Source of the DNA: Erysipelotrichaceae bacterium
GTDB taxonomy: Bacteria > Bacillota_I > Bacilli_A > Erysipelotrichales > Erysipelotrichaceae
NCBI GenBank assembly: GCA_017405785.1
Contig: JAFQZR010000006.1
Location: forward strand, 1 to 64,000
DNA: 64,000 bases
Reading direction: 5' to 3'
Shown: positions 44,876-57,899 of the stretch, piece by piece
Numbering within the stretch: the stretch's first letter is position 1
Layout of the letters: every line of letters begins with the position of its first letter
Program-made: the position numbers and the translations under genes
The notes under the pieces: generated by a model
What the model was told of the DNA's origin: nothing
Seen by the model: the letters and a program-made list of their open reading frames with translations, nothing else
The model's database searches: none

Positions 44876-47218
44876 TTACCTGTAATAGTACCGGATGGCA
44901 TAATTATCGCTTACACCCATGATGTTCTTTACGACAGAATCATCCAGTCTGGCCATGCCACCCATGACAACAGCGCTGTGGATGCTGTTTTTCTTTATGT
45001 AGCTCTTGGCTGTGGAAGCATTCCGCGGTCTGGTCAGGATTACCGGACCATTAAGCCGGTAAGCCAGAGGTCCCCCGCATAAGCCGTCCGGGAAGTCATG
45101 GCTGTAGGCAATGACTGCCGTATCAGCTTGTGGGAAGAATCTTTCCGCGATCATCTGCGAAGTTTCAAAACGGGTAGCTCCGGCAATTCTGTCCACTTCA
45201 CCGTATTTCTTCAGCCGGTTTTCAATCGAGGAATTGACTGCGTTGGTTCCACCCAGAACAATGATCTGTTTTCCCTGATTCCGGCTCAGAAATTCCCTCT
45301 GCCGCGCATTCAGTTCATCTTTTACCAGCAGAACCGGTAAACCGGTCGCTGATGCCGATAGGCTGTCGGCGAAATTCAGTCCCGTTCCTACCAGTATGTA
45401 CTCCGTATCCATGCCTGCTTCTTCCAGAATTGCCAGGTTGGTAAGGTACCTGTTACTTCCTTCAAGGCGCTTGACGGAAGCTATGTTCTTTAATTCCTTC
45501 TCTACGGCACTTGATACTGCTGCCGTACCGCCCAGAATATATATCGTTCCTTCAGGATTCATTCTATCCCGGATGTACGCAGTTATCATGTCCACCTTGG
45601 CGTCGTTAATCAGGATGATCGGCGCTTCTTTAACAGCTGCCAGATATGAACCGGCTAAGGCATCCGCAAATGACTGTCCGCTGGCGATGATCACACAGTC
45701 GAGCTTCTCGATTCCCATGGTTTCCATGAAAACGTCAGTTACAGCCATGCCGGTCTTATATCTGTTATCACCGAAGGCTCTCTTGATGTAATCGTTCTTT
45801 GCTGTCTTGACCCATGTTCCGGTCCAGTCTGCCGCATTGGCACCGTATTCTTCATACAGTTCGGTCTCACTCTTCAGAAGACGTCCGTTCTTCCAGTATC
45901 CGGAAGGAAGGTATGCTTCATCAGACCACTTGGTAAACGCCGTACCTAAGGTGATCTGCTGCAGGCTGTCACACTTATCGAACCGCCCGGTCATATCGGT
46001 AACCTTAGCGGTATCTAATCCGGTTATATGTAATTCGTCCATTTTTGAACAATCATAGAACATGTATGCCATGTTTTCCAGCTTGCCTGTAACAAAATGA
46101 TCAATGTTCAGTGAACTTAACCCGGAACACTCAGCGAACATGCCGTCCATTTCGGTAACAGCTGCGGTGTTGAAGCTGCTGATGTTCAGGTCGTTAAGAG
46201 AACTGCAGCCGTAGAACATGCCTGACATGTCAGTAACCTTGGCGGTGTCAAAACTGCCGAGGTTAAGAGAACTCAGAGAACTGCAGCTCTCAAACATTGA
46301 AGCCATGTTTGTAACCTTTGAAGTCTTAATGCCGTTTATGGACAGAGAGGTCAGGGATGTACATCCCGCAAACATCTGCTGCATATCAGTGACCTTGGCG
46401 GTATGTAATTTACTGACGTCCAGCGAAGTCAGAGATGAACAGTTTCTGAACATGAATGACATGTCTGTGTTCTTGGCGGTTGTGATCTTGCTGAGATCCA
46501 ATGAAGTCAATGCTTTGCAGCCTTCAAACATGCCTTTCATGCCAATTACGGATGTTGTAACGAAGTTGTTCAGTGATAAGGAAGTGAGTTTTTCACATCC
46601 CTTGAACATTTCGGTCATGTCATATACCGAAGATGTATTAAATGAACTGATGTTCAGTTCTCTTAATGAACTGCAGCCTTCAAACATGCTGCACATTACC
46701 TGGACGCGCGCTGTACTCAGCAGGCTCAGATCCAGAGTTTCCAGTTTCCGGCAGTTGTGAAAAAGGTGAGCCATGGAAGAGGCATTCTCCGTATCGAACC
46801 CTGTCGCATTGAACGAGACCAGATTACGGCATTCACCGAACCACCATCTGATTATCTGCGGCTTGATTTCTGTTTCCGGCGCTACATATACTCTGATGAT
46901 ACTGTTACGCTTATCAGCCCAGGGAATGTTTTCCGTGTTTTCGATGTCAGCGTAAATGATACCGGTATATTCATTGCCGTAAATATCGGCTAAAGTACCG
47001 TTTACACCGTTTTCGTAGGTTTCGGGACTTCTGACAAAGATCAGGTCGCCGTTATCGGCGAAGACGGCATAGGCCGTTCCGCTGGTCGGTACGACATCGA
47101 TTCTTTCCGAATCACCGACTTCATCTTCCGCAGACACAGTAAAGACCGCGTGATCAGCGATCACAACGGACAGGCATATCATTATTGCCAGTATGATCTT
47201 TACCAGTTTATCTGCCAT
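44876..47218 (-). CDS. BspA-like repeat surface protein with CWB2 repeats
   Basis: 780 residues from ATG 47218, with GGGAGG four bases upstream. Signal peptide to about residue 30 (ends TVSA). About twelve 26-residue BspA/DUF285 repeats follow (consensus C-S-S-L-x-x-L-[DN]-[IL]-S, then TAKVTDMxxMF), then three CWB2 repeats (about 478-775). BspA-like proteins are often adhesins. It sits inside the polysaccharide locus, between a glycosyltransferase gene and ugd, and its wall anchor may be that very polymer. Confidence 0.85.
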   Translation of the reverse strand: MADKLVKIILAIMICLSVVIADHAVFTVSAEDEVGDSERIDVVPTSGTAYAVFADNGDLIFVRSPETYENGVNGTLADIYGNEYTGIIYADIENTENIPWADKRNSIIRVYVAPETEIKPQIIRWWFGECRNLVSFNATGFDTENASSMAHLFHNCRKLETLDLSLLSTARVQVMCSMFEGCSSLRELNISSFNTSSVYDMTEMFKGCEKLTSLSLNNFVTTSVIGMKGMFEGCKALTSLDLSKITTAKNTDMSFMFRNCSSLTSLDVSKLHTAKVTDMQQMFAGCTSLTSLSINGIKTSKVTNMASMFESCSSLSSLNLGSFDTAKVTDMSGMFYGCSSLNDLNISSFNTAAVTEMDGMFAECSGLSSLNIDHFVTGKLENMAYMFYDCSKMDELHITGLDTAKVTDMTGRFDKCDSLQQITLGTAFTKWSDEAYLPSGYWKNGRLLKSETELYEEYGANAADWTGTWVKTAKNDYIKRAFGDNRYKTGMAVTDVFMETMGIEKLDCVIIASGQSFADALAGSYLAAVKEAPIILINDAKVDMITAYIRDRMNPEGTIYILGGTAAVSSAVEKELKNIASVKRLEGSNRYLTNLAILEEAGMDTEYILVGTGLNFADSLSASATGLPVLLVKDELNARQREFLSRNQGKQIIVLGGTNAVNSSIENRLKKYGEVDRIAGATRFETSQMIAERFFPQADTAVIAYSHDFPDGLCGGPLAYRLNGPVILTRPRNASTAKSYIKKNSIHSAVVMGGMARLDDSVVKNIMGVSDNYAIRYYYR
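45955..46840 (-). repeat. Tandem 78-base repeats coding BspA units
   Basis: About twelve in-frame units of 78 bases, each coding a 26-residue BspA repeat with a Cys at its start. They are diverged at base level but keep phase without a gap. Unit number could change by recombination. Confidence 0.75.
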
Positions 47219-47243
47219 CTTTCCTCCCGTATATATCAACAGA

Positions 47244-51404: not shown

Positions 51405-52124
51405 TTAAATGAATCCGTGTCCCAGTTCAACCGGTGAATCCGGTTTTCTGTATTTTTCCAGTCTTTCCTGATAGGTTTCCATCAGTTCATCCCTGAAAGC
51501 CACGTTTCCCTTCTGCCCGCAAAGTGTAAGCAGGTGTTCGGTAAATAACGGGTTGTATACCAGCAGAGGTCCCAGACAGTAGGTTCCGTAGAAATTCATG
51601 TAATGAATTCCTTCGTATTCATCATTAAAGCTGTCTCCGAGTCCCTTTTCCATTTTCAGGAAATGATTTTCATTAATACCCTTTATTACCGAGAACTGCG
51701 ATTTAACTGCCACAATCGGAATCTCTTCAAACTGTGCCAGTACAATATAGTTCAGTCTCTTATCAAAACTGCGTTCTGCCTGATAATCAAAGATGCCCAG
51801 CATCTCTGTTTTTTTGTTTCCGTCCAGTATATACTGGCCAAACAGCTCCACAGCATTACCGGTTACCAGAAATACCGTTCCCTTTTCGATCAGTTCTCTG
51901 ATTCTGCCTTTGTACTGTGACAGTTTATCTCTGACCAGAAGCTGTTTTGGTTCGCTCATGGACCCGATGTAGATGAAATCCACGTCTTCACTGACAAACC
52001 AAGGCTCTTCTTCAAGCCCGGTTTCCCTGAAAACAGCGTCATTACATGACTGTCTGAATAACATCATGTTGCCGGCATCACCGTAGATAGAGGCAAGTTC
52101 AGGATACAGGATCTCCCGTTTCAT
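51405..52124 (-). CDS. GatD-like amidotransferase lacking catalytic Cys and His
   Basis: 239 residues from ATG 52124, with GGGAGG inside the end of the MurT-like gene. The fold matches GatD (LYPELASIYGDAGNMMLF; IRELIEKGTVFLVTGNAVELFG; EGIHYMNFYGTYCLGPLL). In GatD the loop reads ICGG with the nucleophilic Cys; here it is VTGN, Thr88 in place of Cys. The usual GTYLHGP reads GTYCLGP, Leu184 in place of the His. Glutamine hydrolysis by the standard route looks impossible. It is coupled to the MurT-like gene, so a complex is likely, perhaps structural or using another nitrogen source. Confidence 0.75.
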   Translation of the reverse strand: MKREILYPELASIYGDAGNMMLFRQSCNDAVFRETGLEEEPWFVSEDVDFIYIGSMSEPKQLLVRDKLSQYKGRIRELIEKGTVFLVTGNAVELFGQYILDGNKKTEMLGIFDYQAERSFDKRLNYIVLAQFEEIPIVAVKSQFSVIKGINENHFLKMEKGLGDSFNDEYEGIHYMNFYGTYCLGPLLVYNPLFTEHLLTLCGQKGNVAFRDELMETYQERLEKYRKPDSPVELGHGFI

Positions 52125-52125
52125 A

Positions 52126-53496
52126 CTACATACCTCCCTTGTCAATGTTCTGCTTTATAACATCGATGATGTGATCTCTCATGGCGATGGAATACATTAC
52201 ATCATGCAGAATGATGTATTTGTCCACGTCACCGAAACTGATCAGAGGATCTATTTCCTCTGTTTTTTCCGCTGTCTGAATGATTTCCGGCTTAACACCT
52301 GCCAACAGAAGTCTGTTTCTGTGTTCCTTATGTCTCTGACCGATCACAATGATATGCTTTATAGAATCATCAGCCAGAAACTGATAGTCGGTACTGTAGA
52401 TATAAGGAGTAGCCTCGATACGGCTTTCCTCCTTGAGGATTTCATCATATAACATGATCACGGCTTTATTACCTGATTCTTTTCCTGCATATTCCATGGT
52501 CGTGCTCATGGCGGTAGGATTCTGCCGCTTGCTGCAGAGGTCTCTTATTTCAATACCCTTATATACTTCTGTTCTGTCCCTGTTTTCCGGCAGTTTAGCC
52601 TTTTTCAGCAATTCAGCTGTCTTTTCCGGTGTGTATCCCATGGTTCTGAACAGGGAAACAACAGAAGCCAGATTATATATGTTGAACAGCGCTGACGAAA
52701 ATACCGGATATTCGTTCTTTCCGTCCTTTTCTGAAATGATCACGCTGTCATCTCTGATTTCTTCAACAAAATAATCTCTTTCAGGAGACTTATAACCGCA
52801 CTTCGGGCAATAGAATTCTCCGAAATGGCGGTAATTCTTATACTTGTACACCGGTGTGCTTCCGCATTTCGGGCATACTGGGAAATCGTTAGTAAGGTAC
52901 GTTTCCTTTAACCGTCCCTGATCGGTAACACCAAAGAATACTCTTGGGCTGTTTTCACCGATTCCGCAGCAGATCGGATCATCACCGTTGATGATTAGTA
53001 CGGTTTCAGTATAGTGACTGCATCCGGTGATGATGCGTTCAGATACATAGTCAGGATTGGCGTTACGGTGTAGTGAATCAGTAGCCAGGTTATTGATGAT
53101 CAGATACTGTGGTTTTATCATCTCCAGCATGTAGGAAACCGTAATTTCATCCATTTCGACCACTGCTACATCCTTGGTGCTCTTATTGAAAATGTTTACG
53201 GCACCAAGAAAAAGCCTGGCATAGCCGGCATTGTCATTCGCACCCCAGCTGTTATAGGCTACACTGTAGCCCTGAGCTTCAAACATATCGGCGATGATCT
53301 TGGTTATGGATGTCTTTCCATTTGTTCCGGTAACCGCTACAACGATCTTTGGTTTGGCAACATACTTTACAAACTCAAAGAAAAGCCTCATGGACCGCAT
53401 ACCCGGACGGTCATCATTGACTCTTCCTTTTTTCATGTAATACCAGAGAACCAGCTTACCGGCCCACAGGCTGATGAAAAACCTGATTTTCTTCAT
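52126..53496 (-). CDS. MurT-like Mur ligase, divergent
   Basis: 456 residues. An N-terminal hydrophobic stretch, the ATP loop VTGTNGKTS (residues 57-63 are GTNGKTS), VVEMDEI in place of the usual EADE, and a zinc ribbon with Cys208, 211, 230 and 233 all match MurT. The C-terminal DUF1727 part is altered: the usual ADGxDxSWxWD region is replaced by EESRIEATPYIYSTD, and NPxG reads NPTA. MurT with GatD amidates lipid II D-Glu. With the altered C-terminus and its inactive-looking GatD partner, this pair may act on something else. Overlap of start and stop couples the two genes. Confidence 0.75.
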   Translation of the reverse strand: MKKIRFFISLWAGKLVLWYYMKKGRVNDDRPGMRSMRLFFEFVKYVAKPKIVVAVTGTNGKTSITKIIADMFEAQGYSVAYNSWGANDNAGYARLFLGAVNIFNKSTKDVAVVEMDEITVSYMLEMIKPQYLIINNLATDSLHRNANPDYVSERIITGCSHYTETVLIINGDDPICCGIGENSPRVFFGVTDQGRLKETYLTNDFPVCPKCGSTPVYKYKNYRHFGEFYCPKCGYKSPERDYFVEEIRDDSVIISEKDGKNEYPVFSSALFNIYNLASVVSLFRTMGYTPEKTAELLKKAKLPENRDRTEVYKGIEIRDLCSKRQNPTAMSTTMEYAGKESGNKAVIMLYDEILKEESRIEATPYIYSTDYQFLADDSIKHIIVIGQRHKEHRNRLLLAGVKPEIIQTAEKTEEIDPLISFGDVDKYIILHDVMYSIAMRDHIIDVIKQNIDKGGM

Positions 53497-53506
53497 TTCT
53501 GTTTCC

Positions 53507-53845
53507 TTACTTGACGTAGTCTACGTCAATAGGTTTGTCCATTTCCTTTTCTCTTCTGGCAGCAGCTTCTTCTTCGTGCTTTTTCTCCAGTTCACCGATC
53601 TTCTTCTGCAGATCAGCGATCTTCTTTTCGTTTTCTTCCTTGGCTTTCTTAGCCTTGTCTCTGTTTTTCTTGGCTTCGTGGAATTCAAATGTTACCAAAA
53701 GAACAAAGATGATGATCATGATAATAAGAATGGCGGTAATCTTCATCGGCACTCTGACTGTGGCATTTAACTGGATCACAAAGATCAGTTCAACAACAGT
53801 AAGGGCAAACAAAGCTATTTCCATCAGAATCTGCAAAAACTTCAT
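53507..53845 (-). CDS. Small membrane protein with coiled coil
   Basis: 112 residues: two membrane helices (about 5-25 and 33-53), then a charged helix (about 55-100) rich in Lys and Glu with heptad-like spacing. The layout is like LapA-domain proteins, but I do not assign it. AGGAGG precedes the ATG. It is read with mutS and the MurT-like gene. It could organise a membrane complex for polymer assembly. Confidence 0.55.
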   Translation of the reverse strand: MKFLQILMEIALFALTVVELIFVIQLNATVRVPMKITAILIIMIIIFVLLVTFEFHEAKKNRDKAKKAKEENEKKIADLQKKIGELEKKHEEEAAARREKEMDKPIDVDYVK

Positions 53846-56375: not shown

Positions 56376-57899
56376 TTATTTAGTCTCTATGTATTTACGG
56401 ATACCGTTAAATTCCTTGATTTCCTTTCGCAGTTTTCTGGCCAGTTTCACACTGCCCGGACCAAAGTAAATGCGATGGTAGAAGAATGATTCAGTTACTT
56501 TATAAGCACCCAGATCAAGCAGCGGCTTCGCCTTGATCCTGGTGGTATCGTTGACCGCTACAGACATGCTGACAGGTGAACCGTCGGCTATTCTAAGGTT
56601 AGTTATGCCTCCCAGGGCTCTGATCAGTTCCTTGACATTCAAATTTCCGTTGACTTTATCCAGGAAATCCTGAGCCAGGACACCGTAATACAGCCAGACG
56701 AAGATGAAGTATACTACAAAATAGCCACCGCCTATCATCAGAACACGCTTAAGGCTCTGATCGCCGAGCAGGCCTGCCATCTTGACAAACTCAACGATGG
56801 TTCCCGGTATCGCAAAGGCCAGGGCATCGCTGTAGAAATAGCCCAGATAGATTTCCAGTATCGAGAACAGCATGTACAGTGAACTCGATAACAGAATATG
56901 AATGAATAGCAACAGCGGTGATATGAACAATAGCAGTATCTGCAAAGGTACCAGGCTGCTGGAAGTCATGGATATCGCAATCGCGATGATGGATAAACCC
57001 AGCAGTCTTCTTCTTTCAATCTTGCTGGAATACTGACAGTATATACCGATGATCAGCGCCGGACAGATAAACATGTTGATGATGTAATAAGGGGTAATGT
57101 ATTTTCCCACACCAACTTCGACCATGCCCTTGGTCATCTGAGCAGTCCAGACTGCTACGTCTCCGACATACAGTGTGCCCGTATTATCAAGCCAGTTACC
57201 GCCGTATCCGCCGATCCAGAATCCGTTATGCAGAATGTCTTCCAGGCCAAACAGTTCCAGTATTCTTTCTGTCAGTCCATAGACATACAGCGCTGCCGGG
57301 TTAGCTGAGTTCCGGGAGATGAAATTCATTATGGTTTTCAGCAGGTTGACCGCATATGGGAAAACCAGGGAAATAACTACTCCAACCGCAATGGTAACCA
57401 GGCTGCAGATAATCAGAAACCAGCTGTCGTTGTCAATAAAGGTCAGAATTCCGTAGTTGAATCTCTGACGGGAAAGCTTATATGTCAGAATGACGATGAA
57501 TATGATCACCAGACTGGCGAAAAGACCCATGTTAATTGGCCGTCTGTTATTGCCCTGTATGCCGTTTAAAAGACCCGTTCCCAGTGATGTGTAGTAACAG
57601 CTGTCAAAATCCTGTCTGGCCAGAAACATCGTGACCAGATGTAACAGAACATAGCTTGTAACTGCACCGAGTACCGGGACAGAGTCTTCGTGCCTTTTAC
57701 CGATGATGTTTATGATGACAAAAATAGGGAAAAGAGTCTTGATCAGGCCGCCTGCATACTTAAAAGCCACTAATATCGTCGCAACGATTTCATTAGTGGA
57801 CGAGAAGATATTAGGTATTGCCAGCAGAATCATGGCAATCAGATACATTACTAACGGCCCTTTAATGCTTTCGTAATTTGAATACCATATTTTCTTCAT
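56376..57899 (-). CDS. PTS EIIC-like permease with degenerate EIIB domain
   Basis: 507 residues. About ten membrane helices form an EIIC of the glucose family (FIDNDSW, then GLTERILELFGLEDILHNGFW, typical of the EIIC loop). From about 425 an EIIB-like domain follows: VKELIRALGG, then ADGSPVSMSV where EIIB has DACITRLRV, then GAYKVTES and IYFGPGS. Ser441 stands in place of the phospho-cysteine and the TRLR motif is gone, so the domain cannot carry phosphate in the usual way. It may be a non-PTS transporter or a sensor. AAAGGAA precedes the ATG. Confidence 0.75.
   Translation of the reverse strand: MKKIWYSNYESIKGPLVMYLIAMILLAIPNIFSSTNEIVATILVAFKYAGGLIKTLFPIFVIINIIGKRHEDSVPVLGAVTSYVLLHLVTMFLARQDFDSCYYTSLGTGLLNGIQGNNRRPINMGLFASLVIIFIVILTYKLSRQRFNYGILTFIDNDSWFLIICSLVTIAVGVVISLVFPYAVNLLKTIMNFISRNSANPAALYVYGLTERILELFGLEDILHNGFWIGGYGGNWLDNTGTLYVGDVAVWTAQMTKGMVEVGVGKYITPYYIINMFICPALIIGIYCQYSSKIERRRLLGLSIIAIAISMTSSSLVPLQILLLFISPLLLFIHILLSSSLYMLFSILEIYLGYFYSDALAFAIPGTIVEFVKMAGLLGDQSLKRVLMIGGGYFVVYFIFVWLYYGVLAQDFLDKVNGNLNVKELIRALGGITNLRIADGSPVSMSVAVNDTTRIKAKPLLDLGAYKVTESFFYHRIYFGPGSVKLARKLRKEIKEFNGIRKYIETK

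Follow-up and report, generated by a model that had tools for sequence, protein, structure and literature searches.

The window, a stretch of 64,000 nucleotides from an Erysipelotrichaceae genome (G000), encodes on its reverse strand a MurT-like Mur ligase of 456 aa (52126-53496) and a GatD-like subunit of 239 aa counted from an ATG (51405-52124); all other window coordinates given here refer to the same strand. An upstream TTG at 52145 is an alternative start, which would extend the GatD-like subunit to 246 aa. Both reading frames, placed at these positions by the original prediction, were confirmed, and a single base separates them. The gene for a 112-aa membrane protein (53507-53845), followed by mutS, flanks the pair on one side and a GT4 gene flanks it on the other.

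Pfam searches matched MurT_C (PF08353) to the MurT-like protein at 51.5 bits (cut-off 25) and GATase_3 (PF07685) to the GatD-like subunit at 26.0 bits, slightly below its cut-off of 27. The NCBIfam models of lipid II isoglutaminyl synthase (NF045635 and NF045636) gave 133 and 58 bits, far below the curated equivalog cut-offs of 800 and 400. AlphaFold2 models are confident for both subunits, and the predicted folds are retained. The GatD-like model (mean pLDDT 92.7) has S. aureus GatD as its best PDB match (6h5e_A, Z 27.1, rmsd 2.4 over 226 residues), and the top match of the MurT-like model (mean pLDDT 86.9) is S. pyogenes MurT (9sqj, Z 31.9). Reading frames, Pfam matches and fold matches thus bear out the proposed MurT/GatD-like pair.

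Two further genes were noted in the window. A BspA-type leucine-rich repeat surface protein with three CWB2 cell-wall-binding domains (44876-47239) is encoded beside the polymer locus. A 507-aa membrane protein (56376-57899), whose gene lies between mutS and the gene for a putative NAD kinase, partly resembles PTS glucose IIBC models (108 bits; cut-off 592) and has no Pfam match.

Glutaminase and ligase residues

The window pair shares adjacent genes and folds with the MurT/GatD lipid II isoglutaminyl synthases of S. aureus (6gs2/6h5e), S. pneumoniae (6fqb) and S. pyogenes (9sq9), together with the ATP, Mg and acceptor residues of Mur ligases, the Cys4 zinc ribbon and conserved residues of the GatD-MurT interface. 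Unlike these enzymes, it lacks the residues for glutamine hydrolysis. The catalytic triad of S. aureus consists of GatD Cys94, GatD His189 and MurT Asp349 (PMC6113224), and a residue map against the S. aureus proteins places Gly89, Leu184 (51573-51575) and Ala362 at these sites. The oxyanion hole Gly59-Gly60-Gly61 is replaced by Gly54-Ser55-Met56, and alignments to S. aureus GatD revealed no intact Cys or His elsewhere in register, the presence of which would have spoken against the original prediction. Leu184 had been named correctly as the residue in place of the catalytic His. Thr88 had been named as the substitute for the nucleophile; the loss of the Cys stands, and the choice of Thr88 does not, since Gly89 aligns with Cys94.

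Gly89, and not Thr88, is most likely the replacement of Cys94 as judged from the alignments. Two profile alignments (hmmsearch against PDB 5n9m/6gs2 and hhalign of the Cys-less against the canonical profile), with which the residue map agrees, put Gly89 at Cys94 and Thr88 at Ile93 and are flush on either side of the elbow. The rebuilt elbow reads T88-G89-N90-A91-V92-E93 (51846-51863), the S. aureus equivalent being I93-C94-G95-G96-Y97-Q98. In the Gly89 register the conserved Cys-x-Gly-x-Gln spacing becomes Gly-x-Ala/Ser-x-Glu/Asp, and placing Thr88 on the elbow would require two compensating one-residue indels. The secondary structure of the GatD-like model, with a strand at 84-87 and a helix from 89, is compatible also with Thr88 on the elbow.

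In the MurT-like subunit every ATP, Mg, acceptor and zinc residue tested is present. It keeps K61, N87, E114, D116, E117, N136, D140, R144 and R306 in the residue map, where K61, E114, D116, E117 and N87 correspond to the S. aureus P-loop Lys, Glu108, Asp110-Glu111 and acceptor Asn85 and are invariant in the clade. As originally proposed, the ATP loop G57-T-N-G-K61-T62 (53311-53328) and the zinc ribbon are intact, the latter formed by C208-x2-C211 and C230-x2-C233 (52798-52875; Pfam search and residue map). Because the ligase residues and zinc cysteines are kept, the MurT-like subunit is predicted to be an ATP-dependent carboxylate ligase. In addition to Asp349, Asp346, Gly347 and Asp355 are replaced by Arg359, Ile360 and Ser368, the stretch from A362 to S368 (52393-52413) covering the sites of Asp349 and Asp355. 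The DUF1727 (MurT_C) segment, proposed to be rewritten, has a two-residue insertion in a loop of the C-domain, K323-R-Q-N326 in the window copy (52519-52530), which is clade-wide and turns the canonical K-N-P loop into K-x-x-N-P or, more generally, K-x-x-N-[PS].

Two classes of GatD

Residue counts were taken over 161 GatD and 158 MurT sequences. GatD is strictly bimodal, with 77 canonical sequences that have both Cys and His, 84 Cys-less sequences that have neither, and no intermediates. Position 94 (S. aureus numbering) is Cys in 77/77 canonical and Gly in 83/84 Cys-less sequences, His189 is present in 77/77 and 0/84, and position 98 is Gln in 77/77 and Glu or Asp in 76/84. Arg128, which serves in glutamine capture and has R123 (51756-51758) as its window counterpart, occurs in 77/77 canonical and 75/84 Cys-less sequences. 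Position 95 is Asn in 71 of the 84 Cys-less proteins and position 93 is Thr in 77. When the 202 columns of Cys-less GatD are ranked by conservation, Gly94 is 4th, Arg128 16th, Asn95 19th and Thr93 20th, and the rebuilt T-G-N-x-x-E/D signature is among the most conserved stretches. Two Cys-less GatDs, L045 (G231) and L101 (G137), carry a Cys one residue ahead of the nucleophile position (CGS and CGN).

These counts bear on the possibility that the Cys-less GatD is still a glutaminase, with Thr at position 93 beside Gly94 as nucleophile and with altered acid-base chemistry. Thr, Cys or Ser occupies this position in 80/84 sequences, and a one-residue register shift onto the elbow would be compatible with the model secondary structure. 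However, the losses extend to His189, the oxyanion residues Gly60-Gly61 and often MurT D349, and the profile alignments are flush without a shift and preserve the Cys-x-Gly-x-Gln spacing. We regard such a glutaminase as quite improbable.

The partner MurT sequences differ in parallel. Position 349 is D in 31, N in 20, E in 13 and A in 6 of 83 Cys-less sequences, as opposed to D in 74/75 canonical ones. In the gate loop, Asp137 (74/75 canonical) becomes non-Asp and Glu141 (75/75 canonical) mostly His or Asn. The DNAAD-G-R-D segment, a stem-peptide motif, is lost in Cys-less MurT, and the ligase residues are invariant.

The 84 Cys-less GatDs form one clade in a maximum-likelihood tree (SH-aLRT 100), and a single change between the classes suffices. 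Conservation of the changed residues in relatives, which had been suggested as a check, identifies them as an old and clade-wide state. Comparison of the window pair with its G225 ortholog gave dN/dS values of 0.083 and 0.101, indicating purifying selection, with dS of about 1.6 being near saturation. The Cys-less pair is not decaying, given the highly conserved T-G-N-x-x-E/D site, the retained Arg128 and a dN/dS of about 0.1. At the level of sequence, this shows a former glutaminase site that has been rebuilt and is under constraint. The original argument, that joint losses in the two subunits point to a new function and not to decay if fold and gene coupling persist, is supported, and selection persists as well.

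Individual copies may still have been lost. In G230 (L075, contig C136), a MurT of the type found on contig C9 of the window genome is broken in two frames and its GatD is open, which may reflect recent loss or faulty assembly. In G001, a canonical copy is split. Such cases would fit a decaying relic or a pair without a role in the wall. This is a very improbable explanation against the low dN/dS, the invariant ligase residues, the near-universal Gly94 and the survival of the pair in 33 genera from two families; at clade level, decay is refuted by dN/dS and conservation.

PF08353 was searched in 272 Erysipelotrichaceae genomes, with low-scoring members read as sequence; the genomes surveyed are mostly metagenome bins. 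The window's family was recognized as Erysipelotrichaceae from contig L128 of Merdibacter massiliensis, which over 3657 bases is 100% identical to locus L219 of genome G202, a member of this family. MurT_C matches exactly twice in the window genome. The other pair, located on contig C9, includes a GatD reading LFTGNSWQMLG ... SLNGPLL, which is also without Cys and His, so the window genome has no canonical pair. The second canonical pair expected by the original prediction was therefore looked for and not found, and a neofunctionalized duplicate beside a canonical pair was rejected. Among 30 checked Erysipelotrichaceae genera, 17 have only Cys/His-less GatD and 13 only canonical GatD. MurT_C scores assign about 74 of the 196 MurT-bearing Erysipelotrichaceae genomes to the Cys-less kind, and none of the 196 has both kinds, this mutual exclusion being one of score classes that were sequence-checked in part of the genomes. 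Across 395 genomes searched from the taxonomic class to which Erysipelotrichaceae belong, 16 genera of another family, with genomes of 0.6-1.5 Mb, also have the Cys-less kind.

A wider contig scan used alignment A1 and one general P-loop pattern; a scan with a single protein as query gave no matches. Among the matches listed, all cultured named genomes with a GatD read were canonical (staphylococci, streptococci, enterococci, lactobacilli, clostridia and actinobacteria), and absence of the Cys-less kind from other named genera in this listing is only indicative; three Clostridia/Oscillospiraceae MAGs among these matches were Cys-less. No description of a Cys-less GatD was found in the literature searched. 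MurT genes without GatD in the stretch read were seen at L129, L133, L138 and L149 (mostly Gastranaerophilales), at L126 and L134 (Lactobacillus), and at L147 and L148. Genome G138 has a MurT gene, and a genome search gave no GatD match in it.

Neighboring genes

The murT/gatD adjacency is kept in nearly all loci examined. Of the window neighbors, mutS and the 112-aa membrane protein are the only ones still beside the pair in the orthologous loci of G225 and G232, the membrane protein being the sole small neighbor conserved in both. In G225 the GT4 gene is not next to the pair, and the G232 stretch breaks off within it. Wider neighborhoods of 20 more loci mostly show a stand-alone two-gene cassette. 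A role in modifying a glycopolymer carboxyl group, suggested earlier from the GT4 gene and the polymer locus, was rejected on these grounds.

The informative neighbors of Cys-less pairs are peptidoglycan genes. The C9 pair adjoins a SpoVB/YtgP-like flippase and lies near murC, which counts toward a lipid II role. A third paralog in G226, G228, G229 and G230 lies between plsY and a SpoVB/YtgP-like flippase gene (the G230 contig ends inside). A further paralog in the same four genomes adjoins a PF14397 ATP-grasp gene, as does the G150 pair, and three FemAB-family genes lie near the G224 pair. PF14397, annotated as sugar-transfer associated ATP-grasp, was noted next to Cys-less pairs at L060, L063, L064, L065 and L230, in two genera; the assignment was tested in L060 and L230, and the homologs in L063, L064 and L065 were recognized by eye.

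Contig C29 of the window genome encodes two divergent MurE-like ligases (L274:5808-7439 and L274:11625-13109) with the odd P-loops GSKGKTT and GSDGKGT, the second having the specificity loop TVSDCRMESP instead of DNPR or DDPR. Judging by these motifs, the third stem residue in G000 may be atypical. An attempt to identify this residue from the MurE motif was given up, as the evidence was suggestive but mixed.

Nitrogen donor and the role of GatD

To our knowledge, all characterized MurT/GatD enzymes take their nitrogen from glutamine; the Cys-less pair probably takes it from another source. S. aureus MurT alone is inactive, and with GatD(C94G) it loses glutamine use, NH3-dependent lipid II amidation at pH 8.5 being unaffected (PMC3266927). 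Glutamine-driven activity is severely reduced by D349N and abolished by C94S (PMC6113224). The window pair resembles the C94G mutant in its Cys to Gly change, where a GatD unable to use glutamine is required by MurT. It differs from this mutant in that the change is natural and clade-wide, is joined by loss of His189 and Asp349, and comes with a conserved new pocket. Given the natural Gly at position 94 and the missing His and Asp, a glutamine-independent ligase is predicted with GatD as an obligatory non-hydrolytic partner. GatD would be retained because MurT needs a partner for activity and because its active site was rebuilt as a conserved pocket.

A glutaminase domain was likewise kept after loss of its nucleophile in vertebrate carbamoyl phosphate synthetase I, where the Cys was lost and ammonia replaces glutamine (PMC7657897). 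There, the synthetase is unrelated and the loss took place in animals, for ureagenesis. With this precedent we tentatively consider ammonia the simplest donor. The most likely, though by no means secure, explanation of the Cys-less pair is a glutamine-independent lipid II amidase that uses ammonium or ammonia, with GatD as a non-hydrolytic partner with a rebuilt pocket. With ATP, MurT would activate a carboxylate of a lipid-bound precursor of the cell wall; the retained acceptor and Mg residues make the alpha-carboxyl of D-Glu2 the most likely one. Cellular ammonium or ammonia would form the amide directly, in place of ammonia released from glutamine, which GatD would no longer hydrolyze. The former active site, T-G-N-x-x-E/D beside Arg128, would serve as a conserved pocket, perhaps for collecting ammonium or for gating the channel. 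Since the S. aureus C94G enzyme uses NH3 only at pH 8.5, an enzyme working in the cytoplasm would have to possess an ammonium site, which here is a guess.

Against the ammonium reading, G000 has two glutamine-synthetase-like genes and glutamine is probably available. Glutamine synthetase is missing in 16/74 Cys-less versus 8/122 canonical genomes, counts that are not corrected for phylogeny and completeness. A lost glutamine supply as the cause of the change was rejected, given this weak association and the two genes in G000. In addition, genomes of the window genus carry two to three divergent pairs, which is hard to explain if all of them carry out one simple amidation. The missing DNAAD and the altered gate (no D137; H or N instead of E141) suggest, on sequence grounds, that the donor or the acceptor has changed too.

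The main alternative, albeit a doubtful one, is that MurT joins a primary amine or amino acid to the D-Glu2 alpha-carboxyl, as in group B peptidoglycans, that the GatD pocket binds the donor or only scaffolds, and that paralogs differ in donor. A hypothetical group B bridge ligase would attach a diamino acid or glycine at this carboxyl. The several divergent pairs per genome and the altered peptide-binding motif and gate are consistent with it, and the conserved pocket offers a new Glu/Asp98 for an amine and the kept Arg128 for a carboxylate. The unusual MurE-like ligases of G000 hint at an atypical stem, and the FemAB and PF14397 neighbors also fit, as do the group B walls of some Erysipelotrichaceae; literature searches on group B peptidoglycan gave nothing useful for this family. 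A precedent exists in Cyanophora, where N-acetylputrescine, an amine, is added to D-Glu at the lipid stage (PMC3266927). Against an amine or amino acid as donor, an amino acid bound in GatD lies >20 A from the ATP site even in a closed model (PMC6113224), making direct hand-over of a donor impossible. Genus g24, which may be Erysipelothrix, also argues against it, because most of its genomes are without any MurT/GatD; a simple group B wall link via Erysipelothrix was rejected for this reason, the identity of g24 being a guess.

The archaeal pseudomurein peptide ligases pMurC and pMurE are MurT-like and attach amino acids without a glutaminase. Unlike the window pair they have no GatD partner, and they are not the best match, pMurC being a weak sequence and fold match. 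The broader claim that a widespread MurT/GatD-like class modifies the D-Glu alpha-carboxyl of lipid II with an amine or amino acid instead of ammonia, with the former glutaminase as donor-binding or gating subunit, seems rather unlikely to us.

GatD could also be a regulatory subunit that senses a ligand, for example glutamine via Arg128, and switches an ammonia-using MurT on or off. Conservation of Arg128 and of the pocket despite lost hydrolysis would be expected of such a sensor, but complex formation accounts equally well for the invariant G190, P191 and N196 close to the MurT interface, and we find this role improbable.

Several Gram-positive pathogens cannot live without lipid II amidation, which has been explored as a drug target. 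With one strongly conserved new site in place of the glutaminase site across the 33 checked genera, the nitrogen donor, or the modification itself, has probably changed in natural walls. The name isoglutaminyl synthase (glutamine-hydrolyzing) would be wrong for the Cys-less proteins of these gut bacteria. We know of no ligase assigned to D-Glu-substituted (group B-like) peptidoglycans, and if the donor were an amine or amino acid, the Cys-less pairs would be candidate enzymes for such walls.
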